A model generated the notes under the pieces. The model searched no databases and was not told the DNA's origin. It worked only from the letters and a program-made list of their open reading frames with translations. This document shows, one piece after another, positions 25,757 to 63,823 of a stretch of DNA of 64,000 nt. A program made the position numbers and the translations under genes. Positions within the stretch are counted from its first letter, which is position 1. Every line of letters begins with the position of its first letter. The stretch comes from Bolinopsis microptera. Its lineage: Eukaryota > Ctenophora > Tentaculata > Lobata > Bolinopsidae. The stretch is from the NCBI RefSeq assembly GCF_026151205.1, contig NC_087083.1:744001-808000 (forward strand). Direction: 5' to 3'.

Positions 25757-28669
25757 TTAAAATCTGGTTTTGGGTAGATTCATGTAAAGAGAATTACAGT
25801 AGTCTAATTGAGATATGACCAGTTGTTTCACCAGCATCAATTTAATGCCTTCATTAAGGTAACGACCAATGGTTCTTAGATTCATCATTGTCCAGCTGCA
25901 TTTCCTTTTGACATTATTGATCTGTCTTTCCATATTTAGAGTTTCATCAAATTTGACACCCAGACTCTTCCAGCTGTCTCCTTTACACTCCGTAGGCAGA
26001 ATTTCAGTGCTTCCAAATTGCAGTCTGACACTGAGTTCACACTTTTTTAGAACATGGCTCTTTCCTAACACCAGTAGTTCTGTCTTTGTTTCGTTCAGTT
26101 TCATGTAGTTGTTCACCATCCATGCTTTTATCTCTGCAAGACATTTGTTTGTTCTGTCTTGGACATCAATGAACTGTACCACACGGTTTGGTTTAAATGA
26201 GATGTACAGTTGAGAATCATCTGCATAGAGCTGTATATCAAGACCATATTTGGCCGCAATTTTCTGGAGAGCTTTGATATAAAGGATGAAAAGAATAGGC
26301 CCCAAGAGTGATCCCTGGGGAACTCCAAACAGCAGCTCCAAGAAAGATGAAAGAGTATCATCAATCTTAACACAGAAGTGTCTTTTCTCAAGGTAGGACT
26401 TTATCCATTGCAGTGCACTTCCAGTAATTCCATAGTCCTTCATAAGCTTTTCCAATAAGACTGTGTGGTCAATGGTATCAAATGCTGCACTTAAGTCGAG
26501 AAGTACAACTATAACAACATTCTCAGCTTCAATTTCTTTGTTTAGATCATCACACATTCTAACAAGTAATGTTTCACAGCTATGATTAGGGCGATATCCA
26601 GATTGGACTTTTGAGTAAAGGCTATGGTTCGTTAGATGGACATTAAGCTGGTTTAGTACAATTCTCTCTAGGATCTTAGAGAAGGCAGAAAGGTTAGACA
26701 CTGGTCGATAGTTACTGAGAATATCAACATCAGCATTTTCCTTCTTCAAAGTCGGTTTGATGACTGCTTTCTTCATATCTGAGGGAAAGACTCCAGTCTT
26801 CAAGGATGAGTTCAATACATGAAGTAAAAAAGGTGTTAGTTCATCGACACAGTTTTTTAAGAGAAATGCTGGGATCGGATCCAAGCAGCAGAACTTGTTG
26901 GACATCTTTGATACCAGGTCTTTGAGTTCATCAGCTGTTATCTCAGAGAAATTATCAAAGATGCAGTCTTTATCAAGAACAGGATCTTTGTCTTTGTCTT
27001 TGTCTTTGTCTTTGTCTTTGTCTTTGTCTTTGTCTTTGTCTTTGTCTTTGTCTTTGTCTTTGTCTTTGTCTTTGTCTTTGTCTTTGTCTTTGTCTTTGTC
27101 TTTGTCTTTGTCTTTGTCTTTGTCTTTGTCTTTGTCTTTGTCTTTGTCTTTGTCTTTGTCTTTGTCTTTGTCTTTGTCTTTGTCTTTGTCTTTGTCTTTG
27201 TCTTTGTCTTTGTCTTTGTCTTTGTCTTTGTCTTTGTCTTTGTCTTTGTCTTTGTCTTTGTCTTTGTCTTTGTCTTTGTCTTTGTCTTTGTCTTTGTCTT
27301 TGTCTTTGTCTTTGTCTTTGTCTTTGTCTTTGTCTTTGTTTTTGTCTTTGTCTTTTCCTTCCTTCTCAATGGCTTGTCTGATGGTTGCAACCTTTTCAGC
27401 GAAGAAATCTTTGAAATCTTCTGACAGTTTCACAGGATCCTTGTAGTTTGGAAGGTTTTGGGTGTCATTTCCTAAAAGCCTGTTGACTTTTTTGTACAAC
27501 GCTTTAGTATCCCCTGAAGAGGACCTAAGAGAGGTTTTGTGGTGAGCGCATCTTTTGACAAACTCTAGTCGGGAAAACTCATCTCTTAGCTTAACATAAT
27601 CCGATCTCAGGTACTCAGATCTTGCACTGTCTATATCATCAACTTTATCTTTTCTCCACGCACGTTCAGCAGTTCTTCTCTTTCGCCTGAGAATACGAAG
27701 TTCCGGGTCTAACCAAGGCATTGGCTTCTTAGTAATCTTCTTTTTTATGTAAGGACAGTGTTTATCCATTAACTGAGTGAGCACGGTGTTGTAAAGGACA
27801 ACAGCATCATTCGGAGACATGTCTTTAGGGAAGTTTGTCAGTTTTGAAATTAAAATATCTTCTTTAAACTGTTCTGTATCAATTAAATTAAAGTTTCTGT
27901 AGTTCATGAATTTTGCGTCTTCTTTGGTCTTTGTCTTGATGTCTGCATCGAAGAGGACAAGGAAGTGGTCAGATTTGGTTCTAGAGGGACAGATTTCGAA
28001 TGAAGTCAGTTTTTCCTTGAAGTATCGGTTAGTCACAACAAGATCTAGGGTTCCACCTTGGTCATGGGTTGGTTCAAGGGGAACGTGTTGGTATAGATCA
28101 TACTCCTCCAGGAGTTGGTAGAGCTTCTTTGGGTAGTGTTCTTCAGGCTTTTCCATGTGAAAGTTGAAATCTCCAGCAATGATGGGGAAGCCAGGTTTGA
28201 CTGTGAGGTCTTTAAGGTAGTCTTCGAATTCTTCTAAAAAGGCACACTCCGTGTACCGAGCCTTCTTGGTATAAGGAGGCCGATACAAGTTCACAAGTCT
28301 CACAATATCTTGTTGAGATTGTAGCAGTGATTCCATCACTTGGAAGGATTTGTACTTCATGACCTTACTATTACACTTTAACTGGAGCACATCACGAAAT
28401 AGCATAGCTATACCTCCTCCTCCTCTGTGTTTTCTTGGATCCGAGAGTATATTCCAACCAAGGTCTTTGATCTCCTTTATCTTAGCTGTGTTTCCATCAC
28501 GAAAGAAGGTTTCTTGTACAAAACAGATGTCACAATCAACTTCTTGAAGATGCTCTAACACTCCGACTGTTTTGTTCACTAGGGATCTAACATTGAACGT
28601 TCCAATCCTTAAACTCTTCCTAGGCGTAGTTTGGTCTCCTTTGTCTTCTGTATGTACCAGTTTTTTGCA
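25757..28669 (-). CDS. LINE ORF2: APE endonuclease, (KD)n linker, reverse transcriptase
   Basis: The frame is open from about 28669, with no ATG at the expected start, and reaches FNVRSLVNKT (28597 region), the start of an APE-type endonuclease. Endonuclease motifs in order are FVQETFF (catalytic Glu), GGGGIAMLF, NLYRPPY, IIAGDFNFHME, QGGTLDLVVTN and TKSDHFLVLF. A Lys-Asp repeat of about 60 dipeptides follows (26985-27354). The RT then shows NYRPVSNLSAFSKILERIV, SGYRPNHSCET, LLDLSAAFDTIDH, GVPQGSLLGPILF and the catalytic YADD. These mark a CR1/L2-group polymerase that copies its RNA at a nicked target. A frameshift near 25757 detaches the C-terminus. Start by reinitiation or frameshift from ORF1 is likely, since ORF1 ends at 28609 within the ORF2 frame. 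Confidence 0.85.
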   Translation of the reverse strand, partial: CKKLVHTEDKGDQTTPRKSLRIGTFNVRSLVNKTVGVLEHLQEVDCDICFVQETFFRDGNTAKIKEIKDLGWNILSDPRKHRGGGGIAMLFRDVLQLKCNSKVMKYKSFQVMESLLQSQQDIVRLVNLYRPPYTKKARYTECAFLEEFEDYLKDLTVKPGFPIIAGDFNFHMEKPEEHYPKKLYQLLEEYDLYQHVPLEPTHDQGGTLDLVVTNRYFKEKLTSFEICPSRTKSDHFLVLFDADIKTKTKEDAKFMNYRNFNLIDTEQFKEDILISKLTNFPKDMSPNDAVVLYNTVLTQLMDKHCPYIKKKITKKPMPWLDPELRILRRKRRTAERAWRKDKVDDIDSARSEYLRSDYVKLRDEFSRLEFVKRCAHHKTSLRSSSGDTKALYKKVNRLLGNDTQNLPNYKDPVKLSEDFKDFFAEKVATIRQAIEKEGKDKDKNKDKDKDKDKDKDKDKDKDKDKDKDKDKDKDKDKDKDKDKDKDKDKDKDKDKDKDKDKDKDKDKDKDKDKDKDKDKDKDKDKDKDKDKDKDKDKDKDKDKDKDKDKDKDKDKDKDKDKDPVLDKDCIFDNFSEITADELKDLVSKMSNKFCCLDPIPAFLLKNCVDELTPFLLHVLNSSLKTGVFPSDMKKAVIKPTLKKENADVDILSNYRPVSNLSAFSKILERIVLNQLNVHLTNHSLYSKVQSGYRPNHSCETLLVRMCDDLNKEIEAENVVIVVLLDLSAAFDTIDHTVLLEKLMKDYGITGSALQWIKSYLEKRHFCVKIDDTLSSFLELLFGVPQGSLLGPILFILYIKALQKIAAKYGLDIQLYADDSQLYISFKPNRVVQFIDVQDRTNKCLAEIKAWMVNNYMKLNETKTELLVLGKSHVLKKCELSVRLQFGSTEILPTECKGDSWKSLGVKFDETLNMERQINNVKRKCSWTMMNLRTIGRYLNEGIKLMLVKQLVISQLDYCNSLYMNLPKTRF
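26985..27354 (-). repeat. Hexanucleotide microsatellite (AAAGAC)n inside LINE ORF2
   Basis: About 61 almost perfect copies of GTCTTT (plus strand) lie in the linker between endonuclease and RT domains. One copy near 27339 has a G-to-T type change. The unit is six bases, so expansion keeps the frame and adds Lys-Asp pairs. The same array gives a spurious (Leu-Ser)n frame on the plus strand and (Lys-Thr)n in another minus frame. Confidence 0.95.
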
Positions 28670-28833
28670 TTCTCACATCCTGCTGTTCTATTCATTATTC
28701 CAGTCCGTTCTCTTACATACGAGGGACATAGGTTATCAGAGGCTTTATGGGTCTTTGCTGAGTTCTTCTCCGAGTGTTTACTACTTTTGGCGCAGTTAGA
28801 GCACTTTATCTTTTTTACATTATTTTCACTCTT
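28609..28833 (-). CDS. LINE ORF1, 3' part (third zinc knuckle), separated by insertion
   Basis: Beyond the left edge of the nested element, ORF1 continues with KKIKCSNCAKSSKHSE, then HKASDNLCPSYVRER and ends at a stop near 28609. CX2C followed by HX5C-P is the last zinc knuckle of gag-like LINE ORF1 proteins. Removing the insertion and one copy of the 10-bp duplication restores a continuous frame from DCNNKSE to NNVKKIK. The end overlaps the ORF2 reading frame by several tens of bases, as in many two-ORF LINEs. Confidence 0.75.
   Translation of the reverse strand, partial: KSENNVKKIKCSNCAKSSKHSEKNSAKTHKASDNLCPSYVRERTGIMNRTAGCENAKNWYIQKTKETKLRLGRV
28824..28833. repeat. Target-site duplication, left copy (TTTCACTCTT)
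   Basis: TTTCACTCTT here is identical to 30256-30265 and flanks the plus-strand LINE. It is one copy of the 10 bases duplicated when the element inserted into ORF1 of the older LINE. Confidence 0.85.
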
Positions 28834-43990: not shown

Positions 43991-44947
43991 CGGTCTGATG
44001 AAGTAGGAATGCGATATAGGTCCCCAACCTTCGCTCAATCCACTTCAATTTTTAACTCCACAGTGCTTTGGAGATTTCAAACTTTGGACAAATCTAACTT
44101 TGTACAGGTCTGGAAAGAGGGACAAGCCACCCCTGGATTCGCCTCTGGCAGCTTACGGTGAGAGATCGATCCCTTTCTTGTTAGTTTACAGAACGTTGTC
44201 ATCATGGAAGGAACCAACAATTAAAATAGATGAACGATGAAGAGAGTTGTATACCAAGTATCAGAACAAAATCGCTCAGATTAGGAAGATACAACCCAAC
44301 GTTGTAAACTGAAATCTGTCCTGAGCTGCCAACAAGGTCGCATAAGATCAATCGAAAAGTTAATGTTTTTTTAACCAGTATTTGTTAACAACGATCTCAG
44401 TCAATCAATCTTAACGTTCTAATTGTTGATAGCTTTTTGACATTTCTAGATAAAACCCAACCTGCTTAAGAACAGTCCTCAAATCCTGATGTGAATTGAT
44501 AATCTCATATTAATGCAATGGGCGTTTGGTGCAACAGTCAAGTTAATTAAGAACGTATTTTTACATCCAAGGATCATAACAATTAGTTATAGATTGTACA
44601 GCAACACACTAAGAGGAGGACCGCCAGATTGCAGTCTGATATAAATGTGAGTAAGATTAACTCAACTAAAGTGAAATGCGATGCTTAGCAAAAACATTAA
44701 TATGGCCAAAGATTTCTTGTGTGCCAAAGTTGCCAAAATATTATCCACAAAATTTGTTTCAAAACAATCTGAATTCAAGCTGACTTAATTCCATACCATT
44801 TCTCTGTACTACTTCTCTGTAAAGTTTGCTCACAAAGAGAAAACTTAGATTTACAACCCCTTTAAGGACCTTGTGTACCACAAATGAGACTCTTCAGGAT
44901 AAGCGAGAATGACAAATTTTTTTACCTCCGAAAATTGGTGCTGAGCT

Positions 44948-47900
44948 ATGGAAGTCTTCAGACTGCCTCCTCTATCTGGGACAAATGCACTATATAGATT
45001 GAAATCCTTACACCCGCACACCCCTGAAAACTCTGGCTTAAAAACTTTATTTACAACATTGAGTAATAAATCGGAATTTCGACTTATTCCTCTCGGAACT
45101 TGCCACTCAAAAAACGAATATTTCTATTCTGCTTTTACGGAAACAAATACAGATGCGGAGAACTGTGATGTGTATGCACACATGATATTCACACTTTTAC
45201 GGAAGAAAACTCAAGGCAAACTAAAGGCTCAGCGTGTGCTACGTATATTCCATGAATCCTAATGCAACAATTAATGACCATCTTTGCACAATCACACCAA
45301 ATTAGAAACCCTATATGTAACTATCAACCATGGAGATACAAAACTCAAATGTTGGGGTGTGTACCATCTCCCAACGGAGACTCCAGTCAAATTTGATGAA
45401 AAAACACACAATTAATGTCCCAAATTTCCAAAAAATTGCAAAAACTATAACTCTTGAGATTTCAACTACGATTCCTTAAAAATCAGAGTAATAAAAAAAA
45501 CAGTTCAATTTTCGAGGAACACATCACCTCTTATGGTTACTTTCCTCTTATATCTCTTCCCACTCATCTCATTAAATGTAGCCCCAGCTCCTGCATTGAC
45601 AACATTTTTACTGATGAAGATTGACTTGGTAACCCTCTCTGATTATTGAAGACACTTCTTCCCATCAAAACAATCTTTGCTTCATTGACATCAGTCATTT
45701 AACATCGAGAAAACTTCCCCTAAGCCTCAGCAAATTGCAAAGCTATGATATCACAAACCGAAATGTTGAACTACTAACAAAAAACACTTGCTATCTAAGA
45801 AATGCATACTAACAAACAATGATAATCCTATTGAATTTGACGAATTTTTTGAATTTTTAGCTCGCTATTTGACTCATGTTGTAAACTCGACAAACCCAAA
45901 CTCACAAACGAAATCCCTATTAGTAATCCCTGATATCCGACACTAATTGAACAATTGAAAAGAAAGTCTCTGTATATAACTGGGTGAACTCAAAAAGCTC
46001 CCTGACTTCAAGCCATTTGGAGATCCTGAAACTCCACAAAAATTTTTCGTGATTACAGACGCTGTCTTTAAAAAGATATAAAAACAAAAAGAATACTATA
46101 ACTGTAACAAAAATTCTGAAAATTCGATAGTTTCTAAAAAGATGAGGGAAGTAATAAATGAGATAAGAGGAAAATGAAAAAGACCATCAAAAACCCAATT
46201 TTTATTGTAGAATTGGAGTCCCGTGTTTGTTGAAAGAACGGGTGATAGCAACAAATTTAATGATCTACTTTGCCTCTATTGCCTCAAAATGAATGAAAAT
46301 AACTCATAATGGCCTTCATTTAGTAAACCCCTCTTTCCTCTTTCCTCGAATTCATGCCACCCAAAAACTCTCATCAATTACTTCCATGACTGTAGTGAAG
46401 ATGAAATTTCTAGAATTATAGCCAACTTGAAGAGTGGCACAGCTAGCGACTTTCCTAAGAGTAATCACAAAACTATCGGTTATTCTTAGCCCAACTCTTG
46501 TTGTTCAATTTAATCGCCTAATATCTCAAAGATATTTCCGACAGTTCTGAAGCTTGGCAAACATAACCCCGAATAAATACAAAAAAGATAACGAAGAACT
46601 GATTGAAACTATCAGTCCTGTTTCCTCCTACACTTCCAATTTTTGTAACATATTTTGAAAAGATAATATACAAACTCTTTACAGCTTCTTGGTTATCAAG
46701 GAATCCTTACGACAGCAATTGGATTCCGAAAGAGTCACTTCAACCCACAGTGCACTTAACTACTCATTTTTTTCACATCCAAAAGGCCCTAAAAGCAAGT
46801 CTCAGTTAAGGAATTTTTATTGATCAAGCAAGGCCTTTGACACCATAGACCAGCAAAACAATTTTGCTGAGAAACTGGAATATAGGGATTAGAGGAGTGG
46901 CCACTTAAGTTACTGAAAGTTACTTGTCGACAGAGACCGTGTGGGTGTCCGTCTGGCGAATTATCAAACAGACATCCAGTTCTCTATTGCGTTCACAGGG
47001 AGCTGAGCCCTTGGCCTCTCCTGTTTAATATACATACATAAGACTTAACAAACTCTCAACTCGATAACACTAGCTATGTCCTATTTGCTGAAAGATACAA
47101 ACATATTTGTAGTTGCCAAAACTAGAGCAGAGCCTACAATAACAAATAGGGTCCTACTATCAGTCCACGATACACATTGGCTAATAAAGTACATGTTTAA
47201 CGCCAGAAAAAGTTGCAACATAGAATTCAATACAGCTAAAAAGAAAACTTGATGATCATCTTTATTAATTGAAAATAGGACTTACCTCAACGGCCTACCT
47301 CTCTCAAAGGTGCAGGAAACGAAATTCCTGGAGTAATAGTCGACGAAGGCCTAACTTACAATCCCAATAGAGACAAACTAGTTAGAAACTCTCGTCTGTC
47401 TGGAGCATATACATGATTAAGGTATAAAATTCCATCATCTATCCATAAGGACCTTTACCACACACTTTTTTGAAAGTCACCTATCTTATGGCATAACCGT
47501 TTGGGGAGTGCAAGGTACTAATAAACTTCAACCACTATTTTTGAAGCCCAGAAAAAGTGGTTCGTATCATGTTTTGGTGACAAAACACTTACCTTGATAA
47601 ATTTATTGACAAGGGCAGTACTAACCTATCATGAACAAAACTTAACTACAAATTTCTTGTGAGAAGAGAGCACACCAAGCCATTTTTGCCCGTCAATCAC
47701 TCATGACATTGCATAATTTATAACCGGATCACTGCTGCAATGAACTTTTTAAAGTCTTTAAATATCGACACCAAATGCACTATTTGAACTTCTGTTTGTC
47801 AAAAAGACACGGCAATGAACGCTTCTTATAACAACCATGCCCACAAACAGTTTTCGTTACAAATCTAGTTGCCTTGGAAATTCATTCCGTCAGATGTTGG

Positions 47901-48110
47901 CACTGAACGACCTTGAAATCACTCATGGTTTATTCAAATCACAGTAAAAAAATCATTCCCCTCTCGTTCAGGGAAGGTGACAAGAATAACCTGGGCCCTT
48001 TGGCAAACTTTCTGACCTCAGGCAGCTTGAAACGACTAAATTTGAAAAAATAAAAACGTCTGTCTAAAATGAACTATTAAACCTCAAAAGCTGATCGCAT
48101 GTCTCCGCTA
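44948..48110 (+). pseudogene. Decayed CR1/jockey-like LINE pol (endonuclease + RT)
   Basis: Through many frame changes the plus strand keeps the order of a non-LTR polymerase. Endonuclease parts include INHGDTKLKCWGVYHLPTET (about 45320-45380) and CSPSSCIDNIF (about 45575-45610). The inter-domain region includes LKSGTASDFP (about 46425-46455). RT motifs include FEKIIYKLF (about 46655-46680), SKAFDTIDQQN-like (about 46830-46860), GVSVWRIIKQ-like, GPLLFNIYI-like (about 47010-47040) and SYVLFA(D)D-like (about 47075-47100). The thumb GVIVDEGLTYNP lies near 47335, and MPTNSF(R)YKSS with NSFRQMLAL in the C-terminal tail (47830-47910). There are dozens of stops. The longest clean piece is 44948-45262. 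It is an old, inactive copy whose likely 3' end is near 48440. Confidence 0.7.
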
Positions 48111-48436
48111 CAAAATTTAATGAGCCCAATCACTCACACTTAAACAGTTAATCTTCAAAAGTGATTGTACAAACTAGGTTGTTTTAAGTAGCTGTTGATA
48201 GAGTAAAACAGGATGACTTGACGTTTTCATATAACTTCGATTTACAATTTGTTACCATAATAAAACGAGCTCTGCCCATGGGGTACAAAAAGGTTCATTG
48301 TAAGCCTCCAGCGTAATGGTCCAAGTCTCTGGCCCCATGCATGCCTTCACACAGCTAACAGAATAAAAGGCCCTAACATAACGATCACGCCACAAATTAG
48401 TTCTGTTAATGATTTAATATTGTTGAATAAAGAGAT

Positions 48437-49645
48437 TTGAAATATAATATTTGTTTTTTATCTGACATAATTGCCCTAAATGAGACTTGCTCAAAAATCA
48501 ATTTTAAGCACGAAATCTTTCCTTCTTCACATAGAAATCTCCGCAATGACCGCACGAGAAAGACTCATCCTCAAGGATCTAATAACCCTAAAAAGTTTAG
48601 GGAAAATGGGAGGTGGTGTTCTTTGGCGGTTCGTCTGATCTTCGATGCCACTACAACCCGACTACCATTAGACCTAGGTGCAGAAAGCTTGCCGTTAAAA
48701 TTGCTTTTCCTAACAAAGAGAGTATTGTAATCGACTTGGTATAGAGTAGGAACTCTGGTTACCTAATCATGATTCAAATTAGTTATGATTCGCAAGCTAG
48801 TTTCCAAAAGAAGCCCCCTAAATCTATGTTATTGGATTTAGATCCTCCCCATACAGACAGGCTATCTTCATCCAGTACCGTACCTATTTGACAATCCTCA
48901 TAGATTCTATCAGTGATCTTTCTCTCTCCCAGTTTGATCACATCACCCACCCAAAACGTGGTAAAACATTAGACATTCTTCTCAAATTATCATACACAAT
49001 CGATACCTGAATGTCTGTGAACCTCATTCCGTGTGCAAATCTGATCATTTTTCCTGTCACTTTTTTTCAATAAAAGCTCTTTTCTCCCGCTAGAACACTC
49101 CTAAACGTAAAATGCTAAATTATAAGAAAGCTAACTGGGACAATGATTAATCGAGAATAGGGCTCGATTAATGCAAGTCCTAGAATGCCTAAGATCCTGA
49201 TTGCGTCCTTGGAAGTTAGTTTAAATACTGCATGTAAATGATTTAGTTGTTATACATAGTCCTAAAGTAACTAGTAAACAGAGTTTCAACCCCCGTGTTC
49301 GACAGTGAACTTTTTTCTTCATGTCGTAAAAAAGAGAGACTCAGCGCTAAATTTAAAATTTCTGGTTCTATTTCGTGATGAGTTAAAGTTTGTTACTACC
49401 GTACAGATTTTAAGAGCTTTCATCAGCCAAAATAGAGACAATCTTTTCATATGTTGATCCTACGCTTATAACAACGAAGTTTTGGTCCATGTAATATAAA
49501 TCTAACTCCTGCCGTATTCCTAATTGTGTTAGTTATTCTGGACAGCTTCGTTCAAACCAAAGCCTCAAGCTGGAACTTTTCAATTCTTTTCCTTTATAAC
49601 CCTTTTTTCGGATACTTCCTTTAGGACACTGACATCTCCTATTGG
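48437..49645 (+). pseudogene. Second decayed LINE fragment: endonuclease and linker only
   Basis: An endonuclease domain starts at LSDIIALNET (about 48455). It continues with FPSSHRNLRNDR, a degraded GGG-V-LAVR block (about 48610-48640) and FNLPSFDHITHP-like sequence (48925-48960). It ends with HSVCKSDHF (about 49030) and KRKMLNYKKANWDND (about 49105-49150). A linker follows: FDSELFSSCRKKERLSAKF, then SNSCRIPNCVSYSGQ and ALELFNSF-like sequence near 49570. The RT is absent and the fragment ends at a microsatellite. It is a separate element from the one upstream, because an endonuclease cannot follow the RT of the same copy. Confidence 0.65.
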
Positions 49646-51777: not shown

Positions 51778-52121
51778 CAATCTGTTGAGGAATTGCAATC
51801 CAGCATGACAAGTTCGTTTGTACCAAGATTCACCCCCGTTTGTTTTAAAAAAATCAAAATTACTAATAGTATTGAAAGTCGATGCATTATCAACTTGCCA
51901 TCTGATAATAATAATAACGAAATTTCTGGTAATATTTTTAGGGAGGAATATTATTGTTCTTTGTTATACGGTTGGGCTGCAGATGGAGTTTTGCCCTGAA
52001 ATTTAAACACATTTTGAATACCACACGATTTCAGAAGTTTTAAGTTATAAAGTCAATTTTGAGTTATTAACAAAAGTCACTTGGGGGTCTTTTAGAGACA
52101 ACCTCTTTATGTTTAATTATC

Positions 52122-54701
52122 ATGTATACCACGGACAGAGGTGCAATCTACACTAAGTTGGAAGGCCTTCCTGAGGCCAAGCCCCCAGTAGTTAAGTTCG
52201 AGCTGACAAAGCTGGACAAGGAAGATTTCGATGCAAAGCTGAAGAGCAGGCGTAATAAGTCATCCTCTGGTCCAAACGGTGTACCATATGTGGTGTATAA
52301 GAGATGCCCGAGAACCGCACACATGATCTTCCAAACCCTATCTACCCTGTGGGACAAGAAGATAGTGCCACTACAATGGCGATTTGGTGAAGCAGTCCTT
52401 ATCCCAAAGACTGAGGATCTGTCAGACCCAAGCAAGTTCAGGAATATTACAAAGACGAACACCAGCGGCAAGTTGAACATGGGAATTCTAGCAGACAAGA
52501 TGCTGGATTATATGGTGTCTAATAAGTACATAGACAAGTCAGTTCAGAAGGGCTTTCTGAAGAAGACTCCTGGTTGTCTTGAACACACCCAAGTGCTTAT
52601 GGAAGAACTAAAAGACGCCAAATCTACTAGACGTCAGATATTCGTTGTCTGGGTGGATTTAATGAATGCATATGGCAGAGTCCCACACAACTTGATCCTC
52701 TATGCCCTCCGGCATTACATATTCCCTGAATGGCTCATAGATTACATGTTTAAGTACTATGATGAACTGATTGTAAGGGTGGTAACCAAAGACTGGAAGT
52801 CAAATTGGTTCTACTACATGTTAGGCCTCTTTCAAGGAGACCCTCTTTCAGTAGTGTTGTTCCTGATTGTATTCAACTTACTGTTAGATCTTCTACAAGA
52901 TCAAAAAGAACTGGGTTATAAGCCCTCCTTTAGCTCGCAACCTACATCGAATCGGGCTTTTGCAGATGACCTAACACTTATGTCCTCCAGACTAGAGAAG
53001 GTAAAGAAGCAGATAGAGTTGATGGAGCAGTTTTTGGATTGGAGTAGGAAAATGAAGGCCAAGCCGAGCAAGTGTGTCTCCCTGGGAATGAAGGTGATAG
53101 ATGGTACGTACCAGGCTTATGACCCAGAGATATTGATTGACGGCCAGATAATCAGCTATGTAGGAAACAACCCGATTAAGTTCCTGGGCCACTGGATCTA
53201 TGTCGATCTAGGGTTAAATGACACTAAACAACGGATTGAAGACAAACTAAAAACTCTGTTTCAGACAGTGGATGAGTGTGGTCTCAACGGTGTCATGAAG
53301 TGTTGGATCTACAATAACATGCTGACTAGCAAGATGTCCTGGGATCTGATGATTTACAACCTTCCTGTAAGTTTTGTGTACGAACTGGATGCTATCTGCA
53401 CCAGATTCTTGAAGAAGTGGTTGGGTGTTACTAGATCAATTACTGTGACAGTCCTGTACAGGAGCAAGGATTACTTCGGGCTAAACTTGAAGAAGCTGAG
53501 TGACTTATACAAGTCTCTTCAGGTATCAAAGGGACACGCCCTGAAGAACAGTGATGACACCAAAGTTGTAGAAGCCTATAATAACAAGAGAGAGAAACAG
53601 GAGAACAGCCCGAGATGGTCTTATACAACGGAGCTGACGGCAAGAGAGCGAGATCTTTACTTCCAGGAGTTGGTTGGAGTAGTGACTAAAGATCGAGTAG
53701 GACTCGGATGCAAACCAAAGTTGACTGAGAGGCAGAAGCTAAGGCAACTGGTAGAATCGGTGTCAGAGAACGACATGCTAGTCACCCTGGTAAACAAGGG
53801 AGTACAGGGCAAGTTCTTGACATGGGAGAACACGATGCAGTTAGACTTAGGATGGAATAGCCTTATCTACAACTACAAGATGAGCCCGGCTCTCCTTAAA
53901 TTCCACCTAAACTCGACACACGACGTGGCTAATACCCCTGCAAACATGAAATTGTGGAACTACTCGAGTACAGGAAATTGTGCACTTTGTGGATGGAAGA
54001 CGTGCAACATCAAGCATATCCTAGCCGTCTGCAGTGTAGCAAGAAACTCCAAAAGGTACAACTGGAGACATGACAACGTCCTACGTGTTATAGCCGGAGC
54101 CTTGCTTGACCAACTCAAGATGTACAATTCCTCAGGTTCCACGACCTCCGACAAAGAATGGATACGGTTCAAGTCGAAGGATGGGAAGTATGAACACCCA
54201 AAGCCAAAGTTGAGGAAGGAGAGGCCCTTTGAGAGAGCGAAAGACTGGAAGCTGATATGGGACGAGGATACACTACCTGCCCAGTTCCCACAGCACATCT
54301 ACAACACAGCGGAGAGACCCGACATTGTAGTATGGTCGGATAGTTTGAGAGAAGTAGTTCTGATTGAACTGACTTGTGGTGACGAGAGTAACTTCAGTGA
54401 CCAAGTAGCACGTAAAGAAGCACGCTACAACAGAGAGCTGATTCCTGGCATCGACGGGTGCGGTTGGAAAGCTCTGCTCTTTACGGTAGAGATTGGGTGT
54501 AGGGGCTTCTGGCACCATACTGTACCAGCTCTATTTAACTACTTTGGATTGGCGAAGAGGACGAAGAATAAAGCCCTGAATGAGGCTGCTTTGGTCGCTC
54601 TTCGATGTTCCTATACAATCTGGTTAGCCCGCGACAACAAGAAATGGTCTACCTGCTACGACATCGCAAGGAGGCCAGAAGTCATAAACTGTGAAAGCTG
54701 A
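52122..54701 (+). CDS. LINE polymerase with restriction-like endonuclease (R2/NeSL/HERO-like)
   Basis: An uninterrupted 859-codon frame. The RT starts near residue 40 (SSSGPNGVPY) and has VWVDLMNAYGRVPHN (residues 177-190, motif A), LGLFQGDPLSVVLF (234-247, motif B) and AFADDLTLMS (279-288, catalytic Asp pair). After the thumb (KFLGHWIYVD) comes a CCHC knuckle C620, C623, H632, C637 with spacing CX2CX8HX4C. The C-terminal restriction-like endonuclease follows, with RPDIVVWSD (732-740) and IELT containing E749, then KEARY near 765 (PD...E...K pattern). This layout belongs to early-branching LINEs that nick specific targets and lack an APE domain. No N-terminal zinc-finger or Myb region is seen before the first Met, so the copy is probably 5' truncated. 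The domestic or active state is unknown. Confidence 0.85.
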   Translation: MYTTDRGAIYTKLEGLPEAKPPVVKFELTKLDKEDFDAKLKSRRNKSSSGPNGVPYVVYKRCPRTAHMIFQTLSTLWDKKIVPLQWRFGEAVLIPKTEDLSDPSKFRNITKTNTSGKLNMGILADKMLDYMVSNKYIDKSVQKGFLKKTPGCLEHTQVLMEELKDAKSTRRQIFVVWVDLMNAYGRVPHNLILYALRHYIFPEWLIDYMFKYYDELIVRVVTKDWKSNWFYYMLGLFQGDPLSVVLFLIVFNLLLDLLQDQKELGYKPSFSSQPTSNRAFADDLTLMSSRLEKVKKQIELMEQFLDWSRKMKAKPSKCVSLGMKVIDGTYQAYDPEILIDGQIISYVGNNPIKFLGHWIYVDLGLNDTKQRIEDKLKTLFQTVDECGLNGVMKCWIYNNMLTSKMSWDLMIYNLPVSFVYELDAICTRFLKKWLGVTRSITVTVLYRSKDYFGLNLKKLSDLYKSLQVSKGHALKNSDDTKVVEAYNNKREKQENSPRWSYTTELTARERDLYFQELVGVVTKDRVGLGCKPKLTERQKLRQLVESVSENDMLVTLVNKGVQGKFLTWENTMQLDLGWNSLIYNYKMSPALLKFHLNSTHDVANTPANMKLWNYSSTGNCALCGWKTCNIKHILAVCSVARNSKRYNWRHDNVLRVIAGALLDQLKMYNSSGSTTSDKEWIRFKSKDGKYEHPKPKLRKERPFERAKDWKLIWDEDTLPAQFPQHIYNTAERPDIVVWSDSLREVVLIELTCGDESNFSDQVARKEARYNRELIPGIDGCGWKALLFTVEIGCRGFWHHTVPALFNYFGLAKRTKNKALNEAALVALRCSYTIWLARDNKKWSTCYDIARRPEVINCES

Positions 54702-54872
54702 GTGTTGGGCCCATAAAACATGTTGAAAGCTGCAACCAGGATCACAAGTACTGGTGGAATACAGAATGACTTGCTAATCAGATTGATAGATGGAGTTGCT
54801 ATCGAAAGATATAGAACTCAGGTAAACATCTAACCTGTAATAGTTTATTGTTGATTTTTCTTTAGGCTTATA
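54702..54872 (+). other. Probable 3' UTR of the R2-like LINE
   Basis: About 150 bp of mixed composition follow the stop codon before the sequence becomes AT-rich. The 3' end and any target-site duplication could not be fixed. Confidence 0.35.
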
Positions 54873-58031: not shown

Positions 58032-61000
58032 CTGCTGATGCCAGGAATGTTTACAGAGGAGATGAACAGCAGGTAGGTTCAGTTTCTTCACACACTGAGT
58101 ACACTTGTTAGTTTGGAAGATTACTGGTTCTGTCTTTAGCTTCTTTATCTCTTCCCGCATTTTCTGGGCAAATAAGAAAGAATATTTAAGCTATAAAATA
58201 TTAAAAATGAAAAATAATCCAATCATTACCGAACCACTTTTAATCATTTCACGGTCGAAAATACGTCTCCCACCCACTCTGGTTAATTACTAATTTCTAA
58301 TTAAATTACTAATTACTCACAGTAGCTTCCTCAGAATATTTCTTGATCAGGATCTCATTCTCATTTGTCTGTTCTTCCTCTATCTGTATGTGTCGTGTTA
58401 TGTAGTTCATCAGCACTGATATGGGAGTTTTAGCGTTCTCTGATAACGCTTTTACCACCTGCAAAAAGGGAAACATTGGTTATTTTTTAGCTCATATTAT
58501 ATTACTACATACTCTATTAACAGTTTTTGACCGATTTGCACAGCAGATCGAAGCAAATTATGTACTATTTTTATTGTACAGTATTGCTGTGTAAATTTGA
58601 TTCTAATTATAATTCTAATTCTAATATCTGGGTATTTTAGATTTAGGAAAAATAACATTTTATAATTTAGTTATTATGCTTTTACTACCTGCGAAATCTT
58701 ACTATATATAAAGCGAGACGATATATATGGTTCCGTGCCATTTTACTGACACCACGGCATCAACTTTAACGCGAATTTCCGCAAAAACCGTAAAAGATAT
58801 ACAACTGAAGCTTTTTTGACTGGGTCAAATGCTTTAATGGCCTTCAAATCAGCATGAAAAAATAAAAAATTGGCCAAGGAATAGGAGTTTTAGAGCCTAA
58901 AATTTGGACCCCCAAGTGGTGTCAAAAACGCGAATTAAATAGGTACTAATTGTTTTAGTCTCTTGAGTATAAGTATTGACACCATTTTAGGGTTAGACGG
59001 GTTCCTGCTAGTAATAATAAATAGCAACAAAGCCAATCCTCAGTATTAAAAAATCGAAAGCGAAACCGTTGACCGATGAAACACTACATACATCGTTTAA
59101 TGTATTATATTATGTAATCAATTAGCAATCAATTAGCAATCAATTAGCGAACCATTAGAGGAGGAAGAAGGTTCTTCTGTTCGATGTACTGTAGGATCTC
59201 AGCCACGTGTTCTCTACTCTCCTCGTCCTCCCGAACTGCAAAATACCTGGACAAAACAATTAATAAATTGGGAAAATGTATTAATTAGTTTAATTAATTA
59301 ATTAATTAAATACGGTGAAATGTCAGTCACCCTTCTCTCCTCGTCCTCCCGAACTGCAAAATACCTGGAAAAAACAATAAAACTTAAATAAAAACGTATT
59401 CCTTATAATAATAACATTGTTATTATTTGATTTGATGTATTCCTCGGACAGGTAATAATAGCAAGTCATGCCAGATCCAGAATGAATCATTTCAATTCAA
59501 TTTAAATTAGCTAATTGACTATTGACAGCTGGTATTGCTAACCTGAGAGCTTGTACCCAGAGTGATGCCTCCTCAGTACCACGCCTCCAACACAGGTCCA
59601 TTATACTCCTGCAATAAGAGTGGGTAGAGAAGACAAAAACAGGAGAAGTAAATTTAAAGAAATATAATAAATACATAATATATAAATATAATCCGATATA
59701 ATACGGTTCAAACTAATAAAAAACATTTAAGGACAACAGGGCTCCTATTCTCAATATTTCGGTATGGTTATAGCTCAGATCATCACAAAAACTGTAATAC
59801 CTCGTGGTAAAAAAACAAGAAAGTGACTATCACGAAACTATCACGTGACTTAAGTATACACTAACTGAAGTATCACGAAACTAACTTGTACTCGTTGTCC
59901 TCACAGTAACAATCCAATACGTGTTGGTAAAGACCACGCTTCTCACAGAGTATAACAATACCAGGTTGGAGTCTGTACAGCTGCATTAGGAGCAGGGCGT
60001 GGTCAGGGTCATACCTGGTAATTAGCGGACAATTAGTGTGCAATTAGTGAGCAATTAGTTGCAGATTAGTGAGCAATTAGTTGCCGATTAGTGACCAATT
60101 ACTGACTTTTTACCCCATTAAGCTATTAAGTATAGACAGGTAATCGACTGTTTGGCCATCTCCTTTTTTAAATAGTCAGCAATTACCGAATTCACTAATT
60201 AACCAATTAACTAATCGACCAATCAACTAATTAACTAATTAACTAATTAACTAATTAACCTTAATTAACTAATTACCTAGCAGTGTCGTTCTGCAGCATC
60301 TCCACTACTTGTTCTGTTCTCTTCTCCCTACACTCTTCCTTCTGGGAATCTCTCAAGTACAGCTCCAGCAGCGCGTTATAAACTGAGGAAATTGGGAAAA
60401 TTAATTAATCAATTAATTAATTAATTAATTAATTAATTAATACATTGAAATGTCAGTCACCGGATCAGCCTACTCGGAACCAGTCAACTATCGGACCATC
60501 AAACTTCTAGAAATTTTCAAAAGGTGCCGAAAATTTGATTCCTGGTTGCTGCCGGATTTATATTCAACGTCTTAAAAACTGTTATTCTAGTTGAAGCAAC
60601 TCGGACCAATAAAGTCCCGAATTTAATGTCTTTCGGACCAACTTATTCGAGAAGTGCGTTATAAACTAAGGAAATTGGGGATCACAATATAGTTTATTGC
60701 AGTATTGGAATTTGGATATTATAATGTTTTAAATGTTACGCAGTTATGCTTCAATTTCAGCCCAGTTTCTGATAATCAACCCACTTGCTGAATATCAGTG
60801 TAATATTCACTAATAAAGTAATGCATAGCACAATATAACAAAACATTAATTAATAAGATCACCTTGAGAAGACGATTCAGGTTGTCTATCCACGATAGCT
60901 TCGAGAAACAGTATCAGACAGTCATTCCTGCAGGAGGATGGAATGTTACTGTTAGCTACAAAATACCACAGGGCACCTTAAAGTCAACCTCACTCTACCA

Positions 61001-63823
61001 TCAACATATTTTATCCTGATTTCATTCCACTAGTCAACCTTTCTTCACCTCGCTTTACCTCACTTTACCTCACAAATTAACCTCATTTAACCTCACCTGT
61101 TGTCAAAGAGAGGTATGAACTCCTCTGGTGGAGGTGGATCCTCAATCTCCCCACACAGCTGTACTAGTTAACCTATCTTTACCTCACTTTACCTCAATAA
61201 TTAACCTCATTTAACCTCACCTGTTAACAAAGAGAGGTATGAACTCCTGTCGTGGAGGTGGATCCTCAGTCTCCCCACACAGCTGTACTAGTTAACCTCT
61301 CTTTACCTCACTTTACCTCACTAAATAACCTCATCTAACCTCACCTGTTAACAAAGAGAGGTATGAACTCCTCTGGTGGAGGTGGATCCTCAGTCTCCCC
61401 ACACAGCTGTACCTTTCTTTACCTCACTTTACCTCAATAATTAACCTCATTTAACCTCATTCAACCTCACCTGTTAACAAAGAGAGGTATAAACTCCTCT
61501 GGTGGAGGTGGATCCTCAGTCTCCCCACACAGCTGTACTAGTTAACCTCTCTTTACCTCACTTTACCTCAATAATTAACCTCATTTAACCTCACCTGTTA
61601 ACAAAGAGAGGTATGAACTCCTCTGGTGGAGGTGGATCCTCAGTCTCCCCACACAGCTGTACTAGTTAACCTCTCTTTACCTCACTTAACCTCACTAATT
61701 AACCTCATTTAACCTCACCTGTTAACAAAGAGAGGTATGAACTCCTCTGGTGGAGGTGGATCCTCAGTCTCCCCACACAGCTGTACTAGTTAACCTCTCT
61801 TTACATCTCTTTACCTCACTTAACCTCACTAAATAACCTCATTTAACCTCACCTGTTAACAAAGAGAGGTATGAACTCCTCTGGTGGAGGTGGATCCTCA
61901 GTCTCCCCACACAGCTGTACTAGTTAACCTCTCTTTACCTCACTTTACCTCACTAAATAACCTCATTTAACCTCACCTGTTAACAAAGAGAGGTATGAAC
62001 TCCTCTGGTGGAGGTGGATCCTCAGTCTCCCCACACAGCTGTACTAGTTAACCTCTCTTTACCTCACTTAACCTCACTAAATAACCTCATTTAACCTCAC
62101 CTGTAAACAAAGAGAGGTATGAACTCCTCTGGTGGAGGTGGATCCTCAGTCTCCCCACACAGCTGTACTAGTTAACCTCTCTTTACCTCACTTAACCTCA
62201 CTAAATAACCTCATTTAACCTCACCTGTTAACAAAGAGAGGTATGAACTCCTCTGGTGGAGGTGGATCCTCAGTCTCCCCACACAGCTGTACTAGTTAAC
62301 CTCTCTTTACCTCACTTAACCTCACTAAATAACCTCATTTAACCTCACCTGTTAACAAAGAGAGGTATGAACTCCTCTGGTGGAGGTGGATCCTCAGTCT
62401 CCCCACACAGCTGTACTAGTTAACCTCTCTTTACCTCACTTAACCTCACTAAATAACCTCATTTAACCTCACCTGTTAACAAAGAGAGGTATGAACTCCT
62501 CTGGTGGAGGTGGATCCTCAGTCTCCCCACACAGCTGTACTAGTTAACCTCTCTTTACCTCACTTAACCTCACTAAATAACCTCATTTAACCTCACCTGT
62601 TAACAAAGAGAGGTATGAACTCCTCTGGTGGAGGTGGATCCTCAGTCTCCCCACACAGCTGTACTAGTTAACCTCTCTTTACCTCACTTAACCTCACTAA
62701 ATAACCTCATTTAACCTCACCTGTTAACAAAGAGAGGTATGAACTCCTCTGGTGGAGGTGGATCCTCAGTCTCCCCACACAGCTGTACTAGTTAACCTCT
62801 CTTTACCTCACTTAACCTCACTAAATAACCTCATTTAACCTCACCTGTTAACAAAGAGAGGTATGAACTCCTCTGGTGGAGGTGGATCCTCAGTCTCCCC
62901 ACACAGCTGTATTAGAAACTCTGTCATGTCCTCAGGAAGGTGGTCCATCAGCTGGGAGGACAAGTTTACCACAATTAGTGAGGTTAAGTGAGGTAAAGTT
63001 GGTCAATCAGGCTATTGTGCACACTGTGCAGCTAATCAGAGTGTAATCTTATTAATCAATTAAATCTGATTATTTAGAGTCTAATCTAGTACTAGATGTT
63101 AATTCTTTAAATTTACTAGATAACAGTTATTTTATAGACTATGCAAAAGATACTGCTGTTCATTGCAATATTCCCAAGTCAATCTAGCTTACTTACAGCC
63201 ATCAAATAGATTGAACAAATTATATGATTAACAATTACAATCAGTCGAACTTCAGCCTAATTCGACTACCATGCCTAGTATTAGAAGCAGATTATAACGT
63301 ACACAGCAAATTATACTTTTTTAACTTTTTAACATTTTAACTGTTTAACTTTAATTGCTTTTTTACCTGTTTTCCGAAGTTCTTAACGTTTTCCTTCTTC
63401 TTATCCAGGCTAGGTAACTCATTAATGTAATCAAGTGCAGTTCTGTAGTCCTGCTTATCTTCTATTTGTATGTGAACGTACCTGTCGGGTAAATAAGTGA
63501 TTAGCTAATTGGATAATTAGCTAATTGGATAATTGGATAATTGTATAATTGAAGAATTGACTGAGCAGAATTTGTATGTATCATAACAAAATGATAATTC
63601 GTCAATCATCATGATCTGATGATGATTGACGAATTTTCATATTGTTATGATACATTTCGGAAATTCTGTATGATTATTCAATAAAATCTCGTTTTTCTCT
63701 TGAAAATGTCGTTAAAACTTTACTTATGTTATATTACAAACTGAAGACTAGTAATTATCTTACCAATCGTATTGGTTGAACTTCTTGGCCAGGTAAGCAG
63801 CGTCATCAAAGTAAGTAGCTTGT
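58032..63823 (-). CDS. VPS11 homologue (HOPS/CORVET subunit), C-terminal ten exons
   Basis: Exons in transcript order, all with AG acceptors and GT donors and consistent phases: 63764-63823, 63367-63481, 62845-62951, 60863-60927, 60277-60382, 59886-60014, 59543-59608, 59153-59246, 58321-58458, 58032-58163. The encoded residues follow VPS11: FNQYDWYVHIQIEDKQDY, LMDHLPEDMTEF, EEFIPLF, YNALLELYLRD, YDPDHALLLMQLY, WVQALRYFAVRED, EQKNLLPPLMVVKALSEN, then a coiled-coil and the first half of a RING-H2 (KCTQCVKKLNLPAVHLLCKH). VPS11 is the scaffold core of the HOPS and CORVET complexes that tether endosomes and lysosomes. The visible part is the alpha-solenoid plus half the RING. The N-terminal propeller lies beyond the window. 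The second half of the RING is missing from the visible exons. Intron 3 contains an array of partial exon-3 copies. Confidence 0.9.
59335..59370 (-). repeat. Partial duplicate of VPS11 exon 8 acceptor edge
   Basis: CTCTCCTCGTCCTCCCGAAC followed by TGCAAAATACCTGGA repeats 59217-59252, which holds the first ~30 bases of exon 8 and its 3' splice site. The copy is about 118 bp upstream in the gene, giving a second possible acceptor. It lacks the rest of the exon and any donor. Confidence 0.85.
60650..60682 (-). repeat. Partial duplicate of VPS11 exon 5 acceptor edge
   Basis: GTGCGTTATAAACTAAGGAA followed by ATTGGGG resembles 60372-60396 (GCGCGTTATAAACTGAGGAA then ATTGGG), the acceptor edge of exon 5. 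A changed base turns the acceptor AG (CTG on this strand) into CTA, so this copy should not splice. Confidence 0.7.
61096..62840 (-). repeat. Tandem array of 14 truncated VPS11 exon-3 copies
   Basis: Copies start (donor edge) near 61096, 61219, 61344, 61467, 61593, 61717, 61850, 61974, 62098, 62222, 62346, 62470, 62594 and 62718. The true exon edge follows at 62845. The last eight are spaced exactly 124 bp apart. Each holds 62 bases identical or nearly identical to the 3' part of exon 3 (encoding LCGETEDPPPPEEFIPLFVN) plus a spacer of about 62 bases (TTAACCTCATTTAACCTCAC type). Each copy keeps a donor (AACAG|GTGAGG) and an acceptor-like TTAACTAGTACAG before CTGTGTGGGG. The copy farthest from exon 3 is most diverged. 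Confidence 0.95.
62990..63365. other. VPS11 intron 2
   Basis: AT-rich intron between exons 2 and 3. It begins GTAAAAAAGC after exon 2 and holds no other feature. Confidence 0.7.
63490..63660. repeat. VPS11 intron 1 with perfect inverted repeat
   Basis: GATAATTGGATAATTG-type short repeats at 63500-63550 are followed by GTATCATAACAAAATGATAA TTCGTCAATCATC and, inverted, GATGATTGACGAATTTTCAT ATTGTTATGATAC (about 63576-63652). This gives a long hairpin in the intron. It may be a tiny foldback element. Confidence 0.6.

Follow-up and report, generated by a model that had tools for sequence, protein, structure and literature searches.

Recursive splice sites are known as single sites in long introns, where a polypyrimidine tract and CAG|GT stand together as a zero-length exon, with no exon in between. 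Sites of this make-up are present at the locus described here, which also resembles three published systems. The polyubiquitin gene UBC is described as having tandem AG|GT units able to serve as both 5′ and 3′ splice site (PMC10809524). In the account of intron gain in a potato RdRp gene, the duplicated segment spans a splice boundary, carrying splice signals with it (PMC4974935). A study of novel introns in recently duplicated human genes reports 27 intron modifications after manual inspection, and its segmental duplications include tandem units lying across a splice junction, with copy number varying between gene copies (PMC2812944).

Here, we analyzed a window of 64,000 nucleotides from the ctenophore Bolinopsis microptera, in which one side of an exon of VPS11, together with its splice donor, is repeated in tandem within the adjoining intron. 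A narrow search of the open-licence literature found no report of such half-exon arrays as a genome-wide feature.

A half-exon satellite beside VPS11 exon E5

Over residues 3-346, a draft protein of 434 residues matches the VPS11 TPR/clathrin-repeat domain (Pfam PF23356, E=2.9e-81), which identifies the gene as VPS11, and the reading frame is open throughout a 12-exon model. Its exons within the window lie on the minus strand and include E4 (63367..63481), E5 (62845..62951), E6 (60863..60927) and the last one modelled, E12 (58032..58163). Exon E5, supported by its open reading frame, PF23356 and the 12-exon model, is 107 nt long, with its true donor at 62844/62845 and its acceptor at 62951/62952; the acceptor of E6 closes the 1,917-nt intron that follows. 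The earlier note had called E5 exon 3, counting from the window edge, beyond which four further VPS11 exons lie upstream (E1, E2 and two others). The N-terminal PEP5/VPS11 domain PF23341 had no match in the genome profile search, and a PDB search with a piece of VPS11 returned no match.

Most of the E5 intron is occupied by 14 extra half-exon units (61047..62844, minus strand; defined by TRF, the unit table and shared length). TRF reports 61047-62915 as a tandem repeat of period 124, with 15.0 copies and 95% matches, and thus bears out the claim of a 14-copy partial-exon satellite in VPS11. The units are mostly 124 bp, with two deviating in length (126 and 134 nt), and consist of the 3′ part of the exon, the donor, and then about 57 nt of intron, so that each crosses the splice junction. 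A comparison of shared length showed that exon and copies are typically identical over 67 of the 107 nt of E5, and not over 62 bases as previously stated. The donor CAG|GTGAGG is kept in all 15 units (the exon unit and its 14 copies), as had been proposed. The branch-like motif said to stand before each copy, TTAACTAGTACAG, precedes 13 of the 14 and is absent for the copy starting at 61406. The unit edge reads CTAGTACAG and the matching position in E5 CTAATACAG. It had been suggested that a latent 3′ splice site at this position may have set the unit boundary; from the two sequences, we infer instead that the edge looks like a microhomology breakpoint rather than a splice-site cut.

Tandem duplication of the whole exon, as in mutually exclusive exons, was rejected, since the units carry 67 of 107 exon nt, lack E5's own acceptor and have an edge acceptor score of only 1.76. 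An introner or other dispersed element is not supported: apart from the two VPS11 copies described below, no place with whole units was found, and contig C11 gave short matches, in a genome search that scored only the best candidates and skipped very common words.

The copies show no detectable constraint on their exon parts. The exon parts, 868 nt in all, contain 7 changes, and the 682 nt of intron sequence contain 11 (P=0.16); the counts are, in the array of the second gene copy 3 in 310 nt and 1 in 186 nt, respectively. Among the exon-part changes, 5 of 7 in the window array and 1 of 3 in that of the other gene copy are nonsynonymous, where 77% would be expected at random, although these numbers are small. 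We therefore attribute the intact donors to youth and homogenization, and not to a proven function. Units 1-5 are identical to the exon unit, and exon-part differences grow with distance from E5 (Spearman 0.60, P=0.024, 14 units). The greater homogeneity noted earlier beside the true exon is thus confirmed, and the trend supports directional growth on the exon side; the corresponding trend in the second copy had P=0.58 over five units.

Recurrence in a second VPS11 copy and in other genes

A search of the genome (264.65 Mb, 232 contigs) located a second copy of VPS11 on contig C12, at a distance of about 250 kb and about 95% identical overall (aligned pieces about 90-98%). The two are collinear from C12:543983 to at least C12:611349, with large insertions on both sides, and the left flank of the second copy had no counterpart near the window. 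The fetched VPS11 stretches contain no N. Exons E2-E12 differ between copies by 12 synonymous and one nonsynonymous change; pS is 0.049 and pN 0.0011, and the coding sequence has therefore been maintained in both. A broken pseudogene was rejected, as the compared exons contain no break. The second copy is either a paralogue or a misplaced allele.

The E5 array of the second copy (C12:554991-555732) has five extra units, giving 6 units in total vs. 15 in the window, so that copy number differs between the two genes. The most distal units of both arrays carry one common odd intron end, whereas the exon-proximal units are unlike between copies. This pattern points to an array that predates the split of the copies and would then have regrown independently on the exon side of each.

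Three further half-exon arrays were found in VPS11, one of them in the second copy only. A donor-side array of 55 bp (3.7 copies, 21 exon nt) lies at 64272-64488 in extended coordinates, and the second copy has one too. The array confined to the second copy is a donor-side array of 40 bp with 15 exon nt, found in two stretches (C12:557641-561768 and 600001-602544), one at each end of an intron that measures about 45 kb. The matching intron of the window copy is 572 nt long; the window copy has a single copy of the array sequence and a 320-bp repeat insertion. The third is an acceptor-side array of 72 bp with up to 53 exon nt, present 74 times in the window copy (83900-89231 in extended coordinates) and 58 times in the second copy. 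Its exon was assigned to VPS11 by position and by a weak match to PF23341 when searched alone (E=0.0037, below the cut-off); we also take it to resemble human VPS11. The VPS11 frame runs open through 55 of 56 extra units of the second copy and through 72 of 73 of the window copy, where the unit adjoining the exon has a TGA. Single acceptor-side half copies of two other exons lie on the minus strand of the window, one of E10 at 59332..59381 (original 59214-59263; 94% over 50 bp) and one of E7 at 60647..60679 (original 60364-60396; 88% over 33 bp, with 10 exon nt exact). The earlier note had missed that such arrays recur within VPS11 and elsewhere, that the second copy has a different copy number, and that a strong acceptor-like site stands at the end of E5.

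The survey of other genes covered kinesin, CCT and myosin exons in 35 genes, with 87 of 109, 29 of 35 and 61 of 73 family matches, respectively, scanned for local copies. Exon edges were taken from the family matches and are approximate, and exon annotation is incomplete. Requiring at least 9 nt of true exon in the array units, we counted arrays at 5 of 87 kinesin, 0 of 29 CCT and 1 of 61 myosin exons, i.e., 6 of 177 exons in five genes, which rejects a peculiarity of VPS11 alone. The units measure 33 bp (L032), 21 bp (L033), 35 bp (L034), 49 bp (L035), 53 bp (L041) and 40 bp (L051, the myosin); the genes with like arrays are located on contigs C2, C12 and C13. Each counted array spans one splice junction, and no unit holds an exon with both sites. 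Throughout the strict and VPS11 arrays, the copies are downstream of the exon when donor-side and upstream of it when acceptor-side. The strict count leaves out L046 (an 8-bp intron array where the family match ran into the intron), L042 (a whole-exon pair), a 41-bp array in L035 (7 exon nt), a 26-bp array in L032 (3 exon nt), weak matches, the loose overlaps L025, L030, L032 (7 bp) and L044, and L050, an acceptor-side array of three copies beside what may be an exon without annotation.

Local copies were found for 33 of 158 random non-exon segments, matched for length and taken from the same genes, vs. 8 of 177 exons; by our reading, these eight include both members of the whole-exon pair and the false L046 row. 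Local repetition is thus a general property of introns in these genes. Because segments are what this control counts, and long arrays take up much of an intron, seeding rates are not compared. Under uniform seeding, 3.0 of 40 arrays would be expected to overlap a junction; the strict criterion gives 6 (P=0.07) and the loose one 11 (P=7.5e-5). Junction-crossing arrays may therefore be commoner than uniform seeding predicts, and a cause linked to splice sites may exist. Strong targeting to splice junctions is not established.

Splice-site strength and competing explanations

Splice sites were scored with a model trained on 75 donors and 61 acceptors of the same genome, chosen near survey exon edges by a generic seed score, which makes the training partly circular. 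The E5 array donor scored 9.68 (65th percentile of the training donors). The unit-edge acceptor, preceded by a purine-rich stretch, scored lower than any of the 61 training acceptors, whose minimum is 4.0. Its score is reached by 17% of 5,138 arbitrary AGs from 12 loci; the corresponding site inside E5 scored 3.95. Low scores are not exclusive to the copies, as two of 12 inferred VPS11 acceptors are under the training minimum, and the inferred donor of E10 is weak too (4.75). In contrast with the unit edge, the AG at the end of E5 scored 9.0 as an acceptor (33rd percentile of 61), a value that 1% of the arbitrary AGs match or exceed. It outscores E5's true acceptor (6.19), falls under the acceptor of E6 (11.57), and is the best acceptor-like end among the 12 modelled VPS11 exons. 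The end of E5 is thus a back-to-back AG|GT scoring high on both sides; its first array copy, ACCTCTCTTTGTTAACAG|GTGAGG, lies at 62715..62738 (minus strand; junction 62720/62721; acceptor 9.0, donor 9.7). As modelled, each E5 unit is a poor decoy exon and a fair zero-length-exon site.

In the other donor-side arrays scored, donors are mostly good (7.4 to 11.3), the exception being E1 of the second copy (5.5), and a strong acceptor is mostly absent from the 60 nt that precede the donor. Acceptor-like sites occur, as exceptions, at the exon ends of E5, second-copy E1 and L051, and inside L041, where an internal AG scores 9.7. In acceptor-side units, donors are weak throughout (up to 6.8 within 60 nt), although some inferred VPS11 donors are equally weak.

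The explanation that we consider probable is that tandem duplication is frequent and local in this genome, and that selection would filter its products down to units lacking a partner splice site. A short segment across the E5 donor junction may have been duplicated in tandem, probably through a few bases of microhomology, and then amplified and homogenized from the exon side. The array would survive because its units are donor halves without the exon's own acceptor, leaving the copies mostly inert and removed with the intron. Such a habit would extend to the whole genome, with local arrays abundant in introns and tolerated where they extend across one splice junction. Correct mRNA would then require the spliceosome to pick, from up to dozens of identical sites, the one nearest the exon. 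Against an account built on site weakness, the 73 extra acceptors of the 72-bp array score the same as the real one (12.8), with all 74 nearly alike; weakness therefore cannot explain their neglect.

The main rival is recursive, dual-specific splicing, in which CAG|GTGAGG would be used as an acceptor and then as a donor, in steps of 124 nt that leave the mRNA unchanged, so that AG|GT arrays would erase themselves. The scores at the E5 end (9.0 as acceptor, 9.7 as donor), the equally strong AG|GT of the myosin array L051 (10.45 and 8.95) and the precedent of UBC, described as spliced at a tandem AGGT array (PMC10809524), all speak for it. However, splice scores do not demonstrate site use, and the shortest of 11 modelled VPS11 introns is 157 nt, which leaves 124-nt steps unproven. 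Nor would the mechanism be general: donors are weak in the other AG|GT arrays, at second-copy E1, in the 72-bp array (4.6), in the 26-bp array of L032 (5.5) and in the 49-bp array of L035 (2.9), and three of four kinesin and myosin donor-side arrays have no AG before GT, which rejects AG|GT as a requirement for arrays. We regard recursive splicing as unlikely, while giving it appreciable weight. The copies could also be decoy (poison) exons, a possibility that the earlier note raised, calling them splice-competent-looking; 62-nt units would sometimes be included, and premature stops would cut VPS11 output. All donors are indeed intact, and inclusion of 1 to 6 units leads, for every number tried, to a stop 73-76 nt beyond the exon. 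Three extra copies do keep the length in frame, as was claimed, but the second of these units then hits a stop. What weakens the proposal is the lack of constraint on the copies together with the low edge acceptor, its purine-rich context included, although the inferred acceptor of E8 scores even lower (1.73). We consider decoy exons improbable.

Two further explanations carry very little weight. An RNA-structure effect is predicted from an upstream-intron stretch (62973..62998, minus strand) that is the reverse complement of 24-26 nt of the units' intron part. Pairing would loop out E5 and favor its skipping or circularization, and extra units would multiply the pairing partner. The stem enclosing E5 has an MFE of -87.4 vs. 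-69.2 ± 4.8 in 200 shuffles (z -3.8), and the arm is matched exactly by nine units and with 1-2 mismatches by six. However, the second copy differs by eye in bases of both arms, so that perfect pairing is not kept. Motifs of this kind also recur elsewhere as short repeats, and chance relics may account for both arms; we consider this explanation very improbable. An assembly artefact, with repeats collapsed or inflated, is the most improbable of all. Copy number is uncertain in any assembly, but an array with diverged units is present in two gene copies whose stretches are free of N, and like arrays occur in genes on three contigs.

Implications and comparison with known systems

We tentatively propose, as a possibility that we rate below even chances, that in this early-branching animal a few percent of conserved-gene exons have had a junction amplified into a satellite of tens of identical competing sites, and that the correct mRNA would be made by position alone, through either exon definition or recursive AG|GT erasure. 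A comparison of animal transcriptomes that included one ctenophore links exon skipping to exon definition (PMC6142364). The arrays bear on whether pairing across exons works in early-branching animals and on how the spliceosome chooses among identical sites. If this proposal is true, intron growth from exon edges would be almost unrestricted, as in the VPS11 intron of 572 nt vs. about 45 kb, and the arrays would offer a simple route for introns to lengthen with the protein unharmed. Copy number could likewise vary between gene copies or alleles without coding cost.

The locus would be a natural counterpart to minigenes, in which a constrained housekeeping exon is accompanied either by extra donors, 5 or 14 of them depending on the gene copy, or by dozens of additional acceptors. 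Half-exon arrays would also mislead short-read splice mapping and gene annotation. Aligners are described as creating false introns between repeats (PMC10632439), and short junction reads cannot place the E5 donor because the last 67 exon bases are identical in most copies.

Each of the systems introduced above differs from the arrays described here. Recursive splice sites stand singly in long introns, whereas in VPS11 they would form a tandem array inside an intron of 1.9 kb. The potato RdRp case, as reported, comprises one duplication and a new intron (PMC4974935), in contrast with many copies in an existing intron. The UBC units, according to their description, are each a complete coding unit, 228 nt long and in frame (PMC10809524), whereas those of VPS11 are 124 nt long, intronic and out of frame. 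Compared with the human segmental duplications as presented in that study (PMC2812944), the arrays of B. microptera reach at least 74 units and are also found in kinesin and myosin genes.

An inverted arm at exon E5 and an array at another, probable VPS11 exon

Upstream of VPS11 exon E5 (minus strand, window 62845-62951), whose 3' part is repeated together with some intron in the mostly 124-bp array units of the next intron, lies a stretch (window 62973-62998) whose reverse complement matches the intronic segment of those units (62801-62824). Folding predicts that E5 and its flanks form a long stem (z -3.8). A near-perfect 80-bp palindrome occupies a VPS11 intron at window 63576-63655.

Another exon, probably also of VPS11, carries a 72-bp array whose units cross the acceptor junction and lie upstream of the exon. 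It is found in the window copy of the gene (83900-89231 in extended coordinates, which run on past the window end; loci L012/L014) and in the second copy, about 250 kb away (C12:607016-611194; loci L013/L021). The coding frame is open in 72 of the 73 units in the window copy and in 55 of 56 in the second; in the window copy, the exon-adjacent unit contains a TGA.

Mobile-element-like frames and other repeats

An 876-aa frame (window 52071-54701) looks by eye like a reverse transcriptase, and the second copy lacks a counterpart of the stretch at window 52126-54870. Between two VPS11 exons, an open frame of 2,721 aa (extended 68202-76364; loci L006/L012) resembles, on visual inspection, a Helitron-type helicase protein. 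A repeat of ~320 bp occurs twice, inverted, in the window copy of VPS11 (window 58696-59012; extended 64866-65185), and is missing at both corresponding places in the second copy. Elsewhere, a high-copy repeat (window 44001-48473) shares ~90% identity with many copies on other contigs, and a near-perfect TCTTTG hexamer array (62 copies, window 26985-27355) sits within a 971-aa frame (25760-28672).

Arrays and an exon pair at surveyed loci

At a surveyed kinesin locus (L032 2686-5596), a 26-bp array of 112 copies immediately precedes an exon; its units start with GT, end with AG at the acceptor, and have only 3 nt in common with the exon. A 30-bp pyrimidine-rich array of 61 copies at a CCT locus (L015 4348-6175) ends just upstream of an exon and contains no exon sequence. 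At a myosin locus (L042 2612-3085), two adjacent myosin-head exons are 83% alike over 101 bp, and they are possible alternative exons.
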